Source of the DNA: Spirochaetes bacterium ADurb.Bin133
Lineage (GTDB): Bacteria > Spirochaetota > GWE2-31-10 > MWDO01
Length of the DNA stretch: 58,909 nt
Direction of reading: 5' to 3'
Assembly: GCA_002070605.1 (NCBI GenBank)
Contig: MWDO01000012.1
Coordinates: forward strand, 1 to 58,909
In this document: piece after piece, positions 14,570 through 49,342 of the stretch
How the letters are laid out: every line of letters starts with the position of its first letter
Numbering within the stretch: position 1 is the first letter of the stretch
The notes under the pieces: model-generated
What the model was told of the DNA's origin: nothing
The model's input: only the letters and a program-made list of their open reading frames with translations
Databases searched by the model: none
Program-made: the position numbers and the translations under genes

Positions 14570-14625
14570 TATAATTTTTATAAAAAATTGTAGTTTGCCG
14601 ATTTTTTATGAAATAAAAATTAATT

Positions 14626-15141
14626 TTAGGTATAGTAGACGTATTTGGGATAATTTTCGATTAGGAGCGCGTATAATAGCTGTTTTCGAGCGGCGATACT
14701 CAACAGTTGTGTCATTTTACCCAAAAAGTCGTTTTGCAATTTATCAATCTTCAATTTCCTACCAACAATCTTAAGGAATTCTTCCAACCCGTATTTCATA
14801 ACGCCGTTATAAAAAAACAGTATAATATCTCGAACCGTCGAAGCCATACCGAATTCGTTATACAAGGAATGCCATCTTTTAATTTGCATATAATCTGTTT
14901 CGCTGATTCTAAGGTATTTATCCAGCCTTTTGTCGTCGGATCTATCTATAACGGCGTATTCGGAGCGATGATTTCCGATTATTCTCTTTATTTTTGAGAT
15001 TTTTTTGTTAACGAGACGAAACATCATTTCAAACAGTTTACTGAACGTATTAATTTTGAACTCTTTTAGTAAGAAATCTATGACGTTATTATTCATAGAT
15101 TCCGATACTATAAAATGGAATAGATGTTTTTTGTTTTTCAT
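14626..15141 (-). CDS. Double ribbon-helix-helix protein, family copy 1
   Basis: 171 residues. Residues 5-45 read as strand, helix, turn, helix (HLFHFIVSESM, then NNNVIDFLLKEFKI, then TFSKLFEMMFRLV), the plan of a ribbon-helix-helix DNA-binding fold. Residues about 76-118 repeat the same plan (KYLRISETDY, IKRWHSLYNEFG, ASTVRDIILFFYNGV). So one chain may carry two RHH units, like a TraY-type pseudo-dimer. The last 50 residues are helical and conserved between copies. The start has AAGGAG upstream. It is about 85 percent similar by eye to the product of 47675-48181. Fold assignment comes from pattern only; an RHH repressor or repeat-binding protein is the most likely role. Confidence 0.6.
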   Translation of the reverse strand: MKNKKHLFHFIVSESMNNNVIDFLLKEFKINTFSKLFEMMFRLVNKKISKIKRIIGNHRSEYAVIDRSDDKRLDKYLRISETDYMQIKRWHSLYNEFGMASTVRDIILFFYNGVMKYGLEEFLKIVGRKLKIDKLQNDFLGKMTQLLSIAARKQLLYALLIENYPKYVYYT

Positions 15142-15176
15142 AAAATTTTCTCCTTTTTTTTTAATATTTCTTTAAT

Positions 15177-15230
15177 ATATATAACAACTAAAAGTAGAAA
15201 ACTCTTTACAAAAATTCGTATAATTTTTTA
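15177..15230 (-). promoter_or_regulatory. Conserved upstream region of RHH gene copy 1
   Basis: The bases upstream of the RHH gene are nearly identical to those upstream of copy 3 at 48206-48260. Shared landmarks are ATATATAACAA (15177-15187), AAAAGTAGAAAAC and TACAAAAA. Conservation outside the coding part implies a promoter or operator that moves with the gene. I cannot fix the -35 and -10 elements with confidence. Confidence 0.45.
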
Positions 15231-15264
15231 GAAAATGACAAAAAATTTGCTAATTAAAAAAAAA

Positions 15265-15320
15265 TGACACATATGCGTCGATTTTTCATCGAGGAGCGCT
15301 ACATCCCATATGTGTCAATT
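15265..15320. repeat. CATATG-family repeat cluster 2
   Basis: Two CATATG cores at 15270 and 15307, spaced 37 bp, reading GACACATATGCGTC and CATATGTGTC. Between them lies CATCGAGGAGCGC, the reverse complement of the spacer in clusters 1 and 4. The cluster forms the right part of RHH element copy 1. Confidence 0.7.
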
Positions 15321-15423
15321 TCCTAAAAAACCAACAGAATACGAAATAAATTTACATCTATTGAAAATATTAATATAATACAGACAGTTTTAATAAAAAT
15401 CCGATAATTAATAAGGACATAAA

Positions 15424-16612: not shown

Positions 16613-16811
16613 AGTCGTTATTTTGTTATGGGAAAATTGACGCATATGCGACTTTTTTTATCAAGGAACGGCGGTTATGCGATTCATATGCGTCCAATTT
16701 TCATCGAGGCGCGGCAATTATGTAGCGCATATGTGTCATTTTAATTTTAACGCCATATGCGTCGAATTTTCTCCGCAACATCATATGTGTCAATTCCCCA
16801 AAAAACCGACG
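16613..16811. repeat. CATATG-family repeat cluster 3
   Basis: Five CATATG cores at 16643, 16685, 16728, 16754 and 16782, with spacings of 42, 43, 26 and 28 bp. The right end CCCCAAAAAACCGACG (16796-16811) is a clean family end; the left end near 16613-16632 is degenerate. Any short reading frame across it lacks a ribosome site and is not counted as a gene. Confidence 0.75.
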
Positions 16812-29841: not shown

Positions 29842-29937
29842 ATCCCCGCATTTTATCAATTGCCCCAAACTAAATCAATAAATATTTATCTGTTTCCAAA
29901 TAATTTTTCAATCGGTTATTTTCTTAACGTCGGGAAT

Positions 29938-30243
29938 CTGTTTTTTGGGGGCGGGGAAAATAAATTAACGCATATGGAGCTATACCCGCCGCGTCGCTTC
30001 CCGATAAATTTTGACACATATGGAGCTATACGTCGCGTCGCTCCCTGATGAAAATTAACGCATATGTAACAAACGAATCAACGCATACGAGTCGCGTCGT
30101 AACGCGCGACAATTGTCGCATAGAAATTGACGCATATGGAGCTGCATACGTACGACTATTGACCCCTCGATTTCGCGTCCCAAGCATAGCCAAGGGAAAA
30201 TAAATTGACGCATATGCGTCGAATTCCCCAAAAAACCGACGGG
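29938..30243. repeat. CATATG-family repeat cluster 4
   Basis: Fills most of the 440-bp gap upstream of the hybrid kinase. CATATG cores at 29971, 30017, 30061, 30133 and 30211, plus a decayed CATACG at 30084. The first three are spaced 46 and 44 bp and share GGAGCTATA followed by CGCGTCGC. Left end CTGTTTTTTGGGG (29938-29950) and right end CCCCAAAAAACCGACG (30226-30241) are inverted repeats. No gene inside. Confidence 0.78.
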
Positions 30244-39246: not shown

Positions 39247-39474
39247 CGACGGTTTTTTGGGGCAGGAAAATAAATTGACACATATGGAGCTGTATACGGC
39301 GCGTCGCACGTCCCGATAGAAATTGACACATATGGAGCTATATACGCCGCGCCACGATAAAAGCGGGAATTCCCGTTTTGAATATACTAATACTCTTAAT
39401 CAACAATCGTATCATATGTGTCAAATTTATTCTTAACATCATATGTGTCAAATTATCTCCCCAAGAAACCGACG
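39247..39474. repeat. CATATG-family repeat cluster 5 with clear terminal inverted repeats
   Basis: The best-defined gene-free copy, 228 bp. Ends are CGACGGTTTTTTGGGG (39247-39262) and CCCCAAGAAACCGACG (39459-39474), complementary at 14 of 16 positions. Left-facing cores GACACATATGGAGC sit at 39281 and 39329 (48 bp apart); right-facing CATATGTGTC cores at 39413 and 39440 (27 bp apart). Between them is half of a second palindrome, described separately. No flanking target duplication is obvious. Confidence 0.8.
39363..39394. repeat. Half copy of the 52-bp GAATTC-centred palindrome
   Basis: 32 bp identical to the centre and right arm of the palindrome at 58313-58364 (from CGGGAATTCCCG to ACTAATACTC). 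The left arm is missing and is replaced by CATATG-family sequence, which suggests recombination between repeat types. Confidence 0.75.
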
Positions 39475-44045: not shown

Positions 44046-44549
44046 TTAGACATATACCGGTAAATTCTGTATTATCAGGGATAAAAGCGCGAGTTTTTTG
44101 AGAGAAATTTTTCTCATATGTGTCAGAATATCGCCCAAGTCTTTTACAATATTATCTGTTTTCAACTTCTTACCGATCATACAGATAAATTCTTTAGCGC
44201 CATATTTTAAGATTCCTTCATAGAAAAATTTGATAATATCTCTTAAAATTACAGATATTCCGTATTCGTTGAATATATAATGCCATTTTTTTAACATTTT
44301 ATACTTTTCAGCCTTTAATCTCACGTATTTATCGATTCTTTCCGGATTTTCATTGTCGATAAACTCATATTTAGATTCATGATCCCCGATAATATTTTTA
44401 ATATTTCGAATATTTGCAGAAGAAACCTCGAGTATATAATCGATTAACCGGCAATTACTTTTAAAATTAAGTTTTTCCATCAAATAATTGATATAATCGT
44501 TAAACTTAGGCGAGATTTTAAAATGAAAAAGATAATTTTGTTTTGTCAT
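44046..44549 (-). CDS. Double ribbon-helix-helix protein, family copy 2 (diverged)
   Basis: 167 residues, roughly 40 percent identical by eye to the products at 14626-15141 and 47675-48181. Both RHH-like patterns are kept: YLFHFKISPKFNDYINYLMEKLNF at the N terminus and KYVRLKAEKY..LKKWHYIFNEYGISVILRDIIKFFYEG in the second half. Near the C terminus the coding sequence contains a CATATGTGTC site at 44115-44124, where copies 1 and 3 have CAGTTGTGTC. This copy is diverged yet intact, which suggests it is under selection. Confidence 0.6.
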   Translation of the reverse strand: MTKQNYLFHFKISPKFNDYINYLMEKLNFKSNCRLIDYILEVSSANIRNIKNIIGDHESKYEFIDNENPERIDKYVRLKAEKYKMLKKWHYIFNEYGISVILRDIIKFFYEGILKYGAKEFICMIGKKLKTDNIVKDLGDILTHMRKISLKKLALLSLIIQNLPVYV

Positions 44550-44657: not shown

Positions 44658-44767
44658 CATATGTGTCAAATTTGCATTATTTTCAAATAATGCGCCCTGT
44701 TAGTTTTTTTGGGGAATAAAAAAAATGACACATATGCGTCGATTTTCCCCCTCAAGAAGCAGACGGG
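44658..44767. repeat. CATATG-family repeat cluster 7, minimal element
   Basis: One core at 44658 and a minimal element at 44699-44767: left end GTTAGTTTTTTTGGGG, a single GACACATATGCGTC core at 44731, and right end beginning CCCC at 44747 with GACGGGG at its end. This may be the smallest unit of the family, about 65 bp. The rest of the 334-bp gap holds the malic enzyme promoter. Confidence 0.7.
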
Positions 44768-44797
44768 GTACGGGCGTCATTTTTTTATAGATTTTTT

Positions 44798-47108: not shown

Positions 47109-47612
47109 ATGTATAAAATTCTCGGATTTGTTCTGGCGCTATTTGCGCTGTCTATTTCAAACGTATCCTGCGCCTCAAAAACGATTTTGATGAAAAACAA
47201 AACAAATATCTACTACAGAGTTTTTCTCTATTATTTTCCCCTGTCAAAAAAATCAACCCCTTTTTTTATTTTGAACAAATCAGATTTTTCTATAGAAATT
47301 GAAATTAATAACAAAGACGTTTACAAAGAACCTTCCGACCCGTCTATTTTTGAAGACGACATTATATTCAGAATTGACAATATCCCTTACGATTGGGTAG
47401 GAAAAGGAGAATTTCCCGTTACGCTGCGAACAAACAAAAAAATTATTTCAAGAATGGCGGAATTTAAAATATCGTCGATCGACGGTCTTCTCAAATTAAA
47501 AGGCGACATAAAAGATATAAAAATCATCGATATTACTGATAACGACTATTTCAAAAACAGAGCTAATTGGGAAGAGCCTTTTTATTTTGATTTTAAAATC
47601 TATATGAAATAA
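47109..47612 (+). CDS. Hypothetical lipoprotein or secreted protein
   Basis: 167 residues. The N terminus is a signal sequence ending in SNVSC near residue 21, a plausible lipobox by relaxed spirochaete rules. The rest is a single beta-rich domain with no family I recognise and no Cys after the lipobox. It starts about 58 bp from the divergent GNAT gene. Probably attached to a membrane facing the periplasm. Confidence 0.55.
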   Translation: MYKILGFVLALFALSISNVSCASKTILMKNKTNIYYRVFLYYFPLSKKSTPFFILNKSDFSIEIEINNKDVYKEPSDPSIFEDDIIFRIDNIPYDWVGKGEFPVTLRTNKKIISRMAEFKISSIDGLLKLKGDIKDIKIIDITDNDYFKNRANWEEPFYFDFKIYMK

Positions 47613-47644
47613 ACAATCGCAGTTTACTTTTAAAATATACGCCG

Positions 47645-48372
47645 CGTTGGTTTTTTGAGGAATAACGAATAATTTTACGTATATCTGGGGTAATTTTCGA
47701 TTACGAGGGCGTGTAGTAGTTGTTTTCGAGCGGCGATATTTAACAGTTGTGTCATTTTACCCAAAAAGTCGTTTTTCAATTTATCAATCCTTAATTCCTT
47801 ACCAACAAGCTCAAGAAATCCTTCCAAACCGTATTTTACAACGCCGTTATAGAAAAACAAGATAATGTCGCGAACCGTCGAAGCCATACCAAATTCGTTA
47901 TACAAGGAATGCCATCTTTTAATTCGAAGATAATCCGCTTCGCTGATTCTAAGGTATTTATCCACCCTTTTATCGTCGGAACTATCTATAACGGCGTACT
48001 CGGAGCGGTAATTTCCGATTATTCTCTTCATTTTTGGTATTTTTTTGTCAATAAGACGAAACATAGTTTCAAACAGTTTGCTGAACGTATTAATTTTGAA
48101 CTCTTTTAGTAGAAAATCTATGACGTTACTATTCATAGATTCAGATACTATAAAGTGAAATAAATGCTTTTTGTTTTTCATAAAGTTTTCTCCTTTTTCC
48201 TTTATATATATAACAACTAAAAGTAGAAAACGTTGTACAAAAATTTGGATAATTTTTTATTAAATGACAAATATTTTACTATTTAAAAATATTTAACGCA
48301 TATGTGTCAAATTTTCATCGAGGAGCGCTGCGGCGCATATGTGTTAATTTCTCCCGCCTCAAAAAACTAACG
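47645..48372. mobile_element. RHH-carrying repeat element, copy 3 (type copy)
   Basis: 728 bp bounded by CGTTGGTTTTTTGAGG (47645-47660) and CCTCAAAAAACTAACG (48357-48372), which are complementary at 15 of 16 positions. Inside are one RHH gene, its conserved upstream region, and two CATATG cores at 48299 and 48336. The terminal repeats are close variants of those ending the gene-free clusters. No transposase gene and no obvious target duplication are seen, so mobility, if any, would depend on a protein elsewhere or on the RHH protein itself. Confidence 0.6.
47675..48181 (-). CDS. Double ribbon-helix-helix protein, family copy 3
   Basis: 168 residues, nearly identical in its first 60 residues to the product at 14626-15141 (differences such as N/S and M/T at isolated positions). 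It has the same two RHH-like patterns (LFHFIVSESM with two helices; KYLRISEADY with IKRWHSLYNEFG and STVRDIILFF). Start with AGGAG. It lies fully within inverted repeats and beside CATATG sites, so it probably binds its own element's repeats and represses its gene. Function is inference. Confidence 0.62.
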   Translation of the reverse strand: MKNKKHLFHFIVSESMNSNVIDFLLKEFKINTFSKLFETMFRLIDKKIPKMKRIIGNYRSEYAVIDSSDDKRVDKYLRISEADYLRIKRWHSLYNEFGMASTVRDIILFFYNGVVKYGLEGFLELVGKELRIDKLKNDFLGKMTQLLNIAARKQLLHALVIENYPRYT

Positions 48373-48441
48373 AAACATGTTTCATATGCGTCGATTTTTA
48401 TACTTAACATCATATGTGTCAAATTCTTGCCCCAAAAACCG
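48299..48441. repeat. CATATG-family repeat cluster 8
   Basis: Cores at 48299, 48336, 48383 and 48411. The first pair (37 bp apart, with CATCGAGGAGCGC between) belongs to RHH element copy 3. The second pair (28 bp apart) ends in a further family end, GCCCCAAAAACCGC (48429-48442). So a second, partial element abuts the first. Confidence 0.75.
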
Positions 48442-48471
48442 CTCAGATTACTTAAAATATAAATTTTAAAA

Positions 48472-48500: not shown

Positions 48501-48541
48501 CGGCATAATTAAACGATTATTATATTTAGGAGATGGTTTTT

Positions 48542-49342
48542 ATGGAATTGATTACAAAACCGTTGTTAGAGGGTAAAAATATTTTTCTAACGGGAGGCTC
48601 TAGAGGCATCGGTAAAGCCGCAGTTTTAGAATTGGCTAAAAATGGCGCAAACGTAGCTTTTACGTACGTTAGCAGCGAGTCGGGAGCTAAAGATACCGAA
48701 GCAAAAATAAAGGAGATCAATCCTAACGCTAAAGTTTTTTACTATAAAATGGACGTTAAAAATTCAAAAGAAGTTAACGAGGTCGCTGAAAAAGCGATAG
48801 CGGATATGGAAAGAATAGACGTTGTGGTCAACAACGCCGGCATATTACGCGACGGGCTGATTTATCAGATGACCGACGATCAGTGGGACGAGGTTATTCA
48901 AACTCATTTAACGGGAACTTTCTACGTGTGCAGGGCTTTTTTGGAAGAATTTATCGTAAATAAGGGGGGGAAGTTCGTTAATATCTCCTCGATTTGTCAC
49001 GTAGGTTCGGCGGGACAGGCAAATTACTCGGCGGCAAAAGCGGGAATAATCGGGTTTTCTAAAGCTTTGGCTAAGGAATATGGGTATAAAAACATTTATT
49101 GCAACGTAATAGTGCCGGGATATTTCAAAACGGAACTGACCGACGCAAACGCTTCAGAAATGATTGTAGAGCAATTTGTTAGATTATCGATGCTGCAAAG
49201 AGAAGGCAAACCTGAAGAATTTGCCAAAGCCGTAGTTTTTTTGGCAAGCGGACTATCTGATTTTGTCAACGGCGACGTTCTGTATGTAACCGGAGGATTG
49301 GATACAATCCCTCCAAAAGACTCAAAAAGAAAGAAGAAATAA
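48542..49342 (+). CDS. Short-chain dehydrogenase, FabG-like 3-oxoacyl reductase
   Basis: 266 residues. NAD(P) motif TGGSRGIGKAAV near residue 17, NNAG near residue 96, and the catalytic Ser-Tyr-Lys in ISSICHV...YSAAKAGIIGFSKAL. This is the 3-oxoacyl-ACP/CoA reductase type. I chose the ATG at 48542 because AGGAG sits nine bases upstream and abuts the earlier ATG at 48533. It is followed after 64 bp by an HMG-CoA-synthase-like gene, so the substrate may be a beta-keto acyl group outside normal fatty acid synthesis. No other fab gene is near. Confidence 0.85.
   Translation: MELITKPLLEGKNIFLTGGSRGIGKAAVLELAKNGANVAFTYVSSESGAKDTEAKIKEINPNAKVFYYKMDVKNSKEVNEVAEKAIADMERIDVVVNNAGILRDGLIYQMTDDQWDEVIQTHLTGTFYVCRAFLEEFIVNKGGKFVNISSICHVGSAGQANYSAAKAGIIGFSKALAKEYGYKNIYCNVIVPGYFKTELTDANASEMIVEQFVRLSMLQREGKPEEFAKAVVFLASGLSDFVNGDVLYVTGGLDTIPPKDSKRKKK

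Follow-up and report, generated by a model that had tools for sequence, protein, structure and literature searches.

A multicopy cassette with IS66-like ends carries a predicted double ribbon-helix-helix protein gene together with CATATG sites in a spirochaete genome

Introduction

Mobile elements have been proposed as a source of new regulatory networks, mostly through the binding sites that they spread. Elements of the IS66 family, which encode a DDE transposase, have ends that begin with GTAA (PMC12888890), and those of Paracoccus generate 8-bp duplications (PMC3281130). IS-type ends and a duplication may also surround a gene unrelated to transposition, as in the mobile insertion cassettes (PMC3129680) and the tIS66 passenger-gene elements (PMC12888890); the compared cases carry resistance or other genes and occur in few copies, and the tIS66 elements retain the transposase. 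MITEs of the MITEAba12 type (PMC6382973) are short and gene-free, lie at AT-rich insertion sites within 8–9 bp duplications and have a related IS enzyme as their mover. In the RAYT-REPIN systems (PMC8049555), one gene, a single-copy domesticated transposase, is accompanied by hundreds of small dispersed repeats per genome, and the system persists under constraint. Two ribbon-helix-helix (RHH) units per chain and several DNA sites are described for F-plasmid TraY and RHH proteins, F TraY being a single chain with the fold of an RHH dimer (PMC12117103).

Here we analyse a window of 58,909 nucleotides, the contig C12 of the spirochaete genome G000 (2.99 Mb, 103 contigs, 95.6% complete), together with G001 (Spirochaetes bacterium Go_SlDig_bin_318), which is its sister species and nearest named relative, and G003, a relative from the same bacterial family. 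The window contains a mobile cassette that is like the single-gene type of IS66 in its ends and its 8–9 bp duplications, but it has no transposase and carries instead a gene for a predicted DNA-binding protein and its likely sites. The cassette has the same arrangement as mobile insertion cassettes and tIS66 elements, with IS-type ends and a duplication enclosing an unrelated gene, and differs from them in its DNA-binding cargo with operator-like arrays, its 50+ intact copies and its hundreds of gene-free derivatives. These derivatives resemble MITEs, from which they differ in that nearly all hold one to eight CATATG sites shared with the gene-bearing sibling. In contrast to RAYT-REPIN, the cassette gene is itself amplified, and its product has no nuclease look and no HUH motif; with TraY the protein shares the two units per chain and the several DNA sites, but it reaches no significant sequence or fold-search score and has no relaxosome genes nearby. 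The parts themselves are known. We know of no such combination, copy number and constraint, and our literature searches retrieved no case of it.

Results

An 813-bp insertion in the window

An earlier note on this DNA had delimited an element at 47645–48372 by the repeat CGTTGGTTTTTTGAGG (47645–47660) and its inverted match, identical at 15 of 16 positions, at 48357–48372. Both sequences are indeed present and enclose one gene (47675–48181, minus strand) and CATATG at 48299 and 48336, and matches like this repeat are found six times in the window, against 0.65 expected. The mobile element is nevertheless larger, spanning 47639–48451 with four CATATG sites inside, as it is bordered on both sides by a perfect 9-bp target duplication, TTAAAATAT. 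The orthologous locus of G001 is uninterrupted, has a single TTAAAATAT, and its intergenic DNA can be aligned across the insertion site; the neighbours of the element, a lipoprotein-like gene (47109–47612) and a FabG-like reductase gene (48533–49342), have orthologues in G001 that adjoin each other. The 9-bp duplication and the empty orthologous site therefore prove that the 813-bp element is a genuine insertion, and they rule out 48372 as the right boundary, which is an internal copy of the repeat. The features of the window are the following:

14589–15342 (approximate), minus strand: second gene-bearing copy (gene 14626–15141, protein 86% identical), with older ends and a decayed duplication
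16637–16811, unstranded: gene-free CATATG cluster with a terminal repeat at its end (16796–16811)
29935–30241, unstranded: gene-free MITE-like element with a CATATG array
39247–39474, unstranded: gene-free MITE-like element with a CATATG array
44046–44549, minus strand: divergent stationary paralogue (34% identity), with an operator-like site upstream at 44658
44692–44772, unstranded: short element without a gene, located upstream of the divergent paralogue, with a single CATATG; ends placed by eye
47630–47638, unstranded: left 9-bp target duplication TTAAAATAT, found once at the empty G001 locus
47639–48451, minus strand (gene): complete mobile element of 813 bp, delimited by duplication and empty site
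47639–47660, plus strand: terminal inverted repeat at the gene's 3' side, ACGCCGCGTTGGTTTTTTGAGG, profile score 21 bits
47675–48181, minus strand: gene of a 168-aa protein whose single chain has two predicted RHH units; 53 or more intact copies in the genome
48190–48250, minus strand: probable core promoter, TTGTAnAnnGTTTTCTACTTTTAGTTGTTATATATAT on the strand of the gene, kept in copies and paralogues
48293–48347, unstranded: two operator-like CATATG sites (48299, 48336) upstream of the gene
48357–48372, minus strand: internal terminal-repeat copy, right end in the earlier note
48383–48422, unstranded: two more CATATG sites (48383, 48411) between the internal and the true terminal repeat
48428–48451, minus strand: actual promoter-side terminal inverted repeat, reading GTAATCTGAGCGGTTTTTGGGGCA on the minus strand
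48452–48460, unstranded: right 9-bp target site duplication TTAAAATAT

The earlier note had proposed to look for target duplications, for empty sites in relatives and for ends that coincide across copies. The first two are found at the window copy, with more duplications of 8–9 bp elsewhere; as to the third, in a flank alignment of all copies homology ends at common terminal repeats, and the right end given for the window copy had to be moved, to 48451. Copy L018 is likewise missing from G001, with a clean site, and copy L008 is missing too, but its junction is not clean. The orthologue of the divergent paralogue at 44046–44549 is present in G001 (77% identical over 168 aa).

Copies and gene-free relatives in the genome

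A protein search of G000 gave 83 matches. Of these, 55 are essentially full length, most of the others are truncated by the end of a contig, and a few are divergent or broken. At least 53 gene copies are intact (mean identity 89%), a lower bound, since the assembly is fragmented and possibly metagenomic. With up to three mismatches, the terminal repeat has 632 matches in G000 and its reversed control pattern has 24, and the repeats are therefore not due to chance. Within contiguous stretches totalling 805 kb, or 27% of the genome, 56 repeat pairs lie less than 400 bp apart, and 54 of these enclose CATATG; in the same 805 kb, mismatch-free 9-bp duplications at the exact offset flank five pairs, against 0.07 expected, and 8-bp cases occur as well.

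The gene-free copies, being short, without coding capacity, bounded by common ends and in a subset flanked by intact duplications, have the properties of MITEs. The two clusters near 29.9–30.2 kb and 39.2–39.5 kb, which had been taken for internally deleted members, are indeed relatives bounded by related repeats. The gene-bearing copies, with IS ends and a duplication around a non-transposase gene, have those of a mobile insertion cassette; a recognisable duplication is missing at many of them, and the G001 copy L124 has no clean one.

The window element was said to contain no transposase, and its sole gene is the one encoding the predicted double RHH protein. Between more distant repeat pairs in the 805 kb, the enclosed ORFs are the RHH gene or host genes, among them some that we take from their sequence to encode an adenosine deaminase, a DegQ-type protease and an ABC-F protein, and a transposase within some repeat pairs was rejected on this ground. 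Searches for a phage or plasmid origin gave no match in phages, plasmids or viral contigs. At one locus of G000 (C9:45809–46915), an ORF encoding a PIN-domain-like protein of 134 aa lies between two very strong terminal repeats (35 and 36 bits); the locus holds either two neighbouring gene-free elements or a second kind of cargo.

Origin of the ends

The whole G000 genome was searched for four transposase families, IS66, DDE_Tnp_1, rve and IS256. None of the first three was found, and PF03050, the IS66 transposase domain, has no match in G000 or G001. The sole transposase traces among the families searched are two decayed IS256-family fragments (L224 and L225, at C3:99831 and C36:17665); IS256 was rejected as the source of the ends, there being only these two fragments, which lack them.

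An IS66-domain search of 60 relatives identified an intact IS66-family element of 1506 bp in G003 (L233:1319–2824), encoding one transposase of 459 aa (PF03050, E 1.7e-40) between perfect inverted repeats, GTAATCCCTTAGTTTTTGGTGGGA, and flanked by an 8-bp duplication, GAAAATAT. Its ends are identical at 19 of 24 positions to those of the youngest gene-free copies in G000, and more poorly, at 15 and 13 of 24, to those of the window copy; an end-profile built on G000 scores 12.7 bits at both ends of the G003 element. The GTAA start is present in part of the family, namely at the promoter-side end of the window copy (GTAATCTG) and in young gene-free copies (GTAATCCGTCAG), and the other ends, including the gene-side end of the window copy, read GCGCC or ACGCC. 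Duplications have the IS66-type length, 8 and 9 bp in G000 and 8 bp at the G003 element.

At the sequence level, the ends are thus similar to those of the G003 IS66 element, with a matching duplication length. An IS66-type enzyme acting in trans would have moved the copies; as the proposed transposase was found in neither G000 nor G001, it is the ends that carry the case for this mobilisation. Of the two possibilities raised in the earlier note, a passenger moved by a protein encoded elsewhere is the better one, given the IS66-type ends and the intact IS66 element in a relative, and a new class of transposon found no support. We accordingly file the element as an IS66-type mobile insertion cassette with MITEs, not as a new transposon class.

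The encoded protein

With 13 family members, AlphaFold predicted strand-helix-helix twice per chain (pLDDT 74.5, pTM 0.75). In this model the gene product is a single-chain double RHH protein with a TraY-like layout, in agreement with what had been read from the sequence. The Pfam models RHH_1 and RHH_3 gave only marginal scores (E about 0.04, one member), no weighty sequence match was obtained in Pfam, PHROG, NCBIfam or PDB, and PF07600, the Leptospira DUF1564 paralogue family, did not appear when 16 members were compared with Pfam at E up to 5. In the fold search, chains of the F relaxosome rank first, at non-significant values (E 0.8 or worse); TraY gave no significant fold match, and no sequence match among solved structures. 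The invariant residues of the family include neither a HUH motif nor a conserved acidic triad. A profile search across 393 genomes of the phylum detected the family in five, all from one order. A literature search on DUF1564 and on RHH proteins with MITEs in spirochaetes yielded nothing useful. A distant branch is also multi-copy in G005, which belongs to a different genus of this order (L073, L075, L077, L079 and L081), and the genes of this branch have no CATATG sites upstream.

Distribution of the CATATG sites

Exact TTGACACATATG occurs 791 times in G000, 39 times in G001 and at most once in each of eight other relatives. A looser form, GAC[AG]CATATG, precedes the start codon by 104–155 bp in 54 of the 55 G000 copies and by 117–190 bp in 10 of 10 G001 paralogues, which are mostly 35–44% identical and have no clear element ends. 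Outside ORFs lie 400 of 435 sites (92%), though 86% of the sequence is coding. A site is found within 30 bp on the inside at 132 of 213 strong ends, and within 120 bp on the outside at only 6; the typical spacing is 5–20 bp inside the terminal repeats. A subterminal site is present at both ends of 27 of the 56 short gene-free elements, and in nearly every copy TTGACACATATG-type sites precede the gene and also stand a short way in from the promoter-side end. This is the distribution that binding by the protein would predict. Because the site position is kept upstream of all paralogues, sites and protein co-occur only within the genus and the placement is subterminal, it is strongly suggested that the protein binds the CATATG sites.

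TTGACACATATG, exact or with one mismatch, is also seen inside the 3' coding part of divergent paralogues, where it encodes LTHM (window 44115–44126; L061 and L064).

Age, selection and linkage

No stops or frameshifts occur among the 53 full copies, which have a mean dN of 0.054, a mean pairwise dS of 0.468 and a dN/dS of 0.115; for the orthologues of G000 and G001 the medians are 0.062 for dN and 0.61 for dS (ratio about 0.10). Each copy is therefore constrained as strictly as a host gene. The highest pairwise identity among copies is 94.6% and, as their dS is near the interspecies value, most of their divergence is old. One insertion junction, upstream of mraZ, is common to G000 and G001, so activity seems to predate the species split and to have continued after it.

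In this fragmented, possibly metagenomic assembly, linkage between variants of the 53 copies falls to the permuted level beyond about 10 bp (r2 0.0194 vs 0.0193), which would fit dense gene conversion among copies or, in part, recurrent substitution along a star-like tree. Multi-base alleles are common to otherwise unlike copies among the 53.

Discussion

We propose, with a probability of about 0.7, that the locus is a non-autonomous IS66-ended cassette with a double RHH gene, which was moved in trans and whose protein binds TTGACACATATG as a regulator or organiser. The cassette inserts with an 8–9 bp target duplication, and it has amplified to at least 53 intact gene-bearing copies and to gene-free derivatives that, extrapolating from the end counts, number some hundreds. 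The enzyme that moved it in trans, of the IS66 family, would later have been lost from G000, or be missing in it. Against this reading stand the transposase not found in G000 or G001, the poorer match of the window copy's ends to the G003 element, the many gene-bearing copies that have no recognisable duplication, the non-significant fold match to TraY and the host-like constraint in every copy, which is unusual for a passenger. By binding TTGACACATATG sites, the protein may control its own promoter from the site 104–155 bp before the start codon and thereby also sit on the hundreds of intergenic sites scattered through the genome, in the role of a regulator or DNA-organising protein. The gene carried by the cassette would derive from an older, stationary regulator family of the genus.

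The near-fixed spacing of 5–20 bp between sites and terminal repeats, the retention of at least one CATATG in 54 of 56 short gene-free elements (subterminal at both ends in 27) and the intactness of all gene copies would also fit an accessory factor of transposition, which, by analogy with TraY and the F relaxase, would bind the subterminal sites, bend or pair the ends and be needed by the transposase. This seems unlikely to us, as the G003 IS66 element has similar ends and no such gene, and stationary paralogues without evident ends have the same upstream site, which is therefore older than transposition or independent of it; a site kept in short derivatives may, moreover, reflect linkage to the end. 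That the protein is itself the transposase of a new class, as the sole gene of an element with at least 53 intact copies, is hardly credible for a chain of 168 aa with a pure RHH layout and no acidic triad or HUH motif among its invariant residues, all the more so as ends of the IS66 type already have a known enzyme.

Mobile insertion cassettes with unrelated passengers are known, and copies stand at sites that are empty in the sister species, so the gene might be a pure passenger, its product functionless beyond its own promoter and its intactness a mark of recent insertion. The copies are old, however (dS 0.47 vs about 0.61 between species; no pair above 94.6%), and yet 53 of 53 are intact with a dN/dS of 0.115, where stops would be expected in neutral copies, and we consider the pure passenger very improbable. 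Collapsed or chimeric repeats in a fragmented assembly could have inflated or shuffled the copies, in line with the contig ends that often fall within them and with the absent linkage beyond about 10 bp. Such an artefact is very improbable, as the copies are found among different host genes and have duplications of their own, the window locus has an empty orthologous counterpart, and shuffling over 5–10 bp is finer than the usual assembler word sizes.

Returning to the IS66-ended cassette, its significance would be that the sites and a likely matching regulator travel together, and the finding names an enzyme family, IS66, as the candidate for their mobilisation. G001 offers a comparison with ten regulator paralogues and few sites. 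Since every copy is under host-like constraint, whether the cassette brings a benefit can be tested directly. More tentatively, and with a probability below even, a transposon family may have spread a complete regulatory circuit of protein and sites, so that the more than 50 co-selected copies and some 800 sites now act across the genome as a regulon or organise the chromosome, with the protein perhaps also involved in transposition.

Related arrays were observed elsewhere. In G001 (C6, L164:93–204), five tandem 22-bp units, TTGACACATATGTTGTTTTACT, stand upstream of a lipoprotein-like gene without terminal repeats, perhaps as a host promoter under the control of the same protein. In G000 (C3:56000–60500, L169), TTGACACATATG modules cluster around small toxin-antitoxin-like genes, mostly without clear terminal repeats, and are mixed with a second repeated module, GGGAATTCCCGTTTTGAATATACTAAAACACTAAAGCG.
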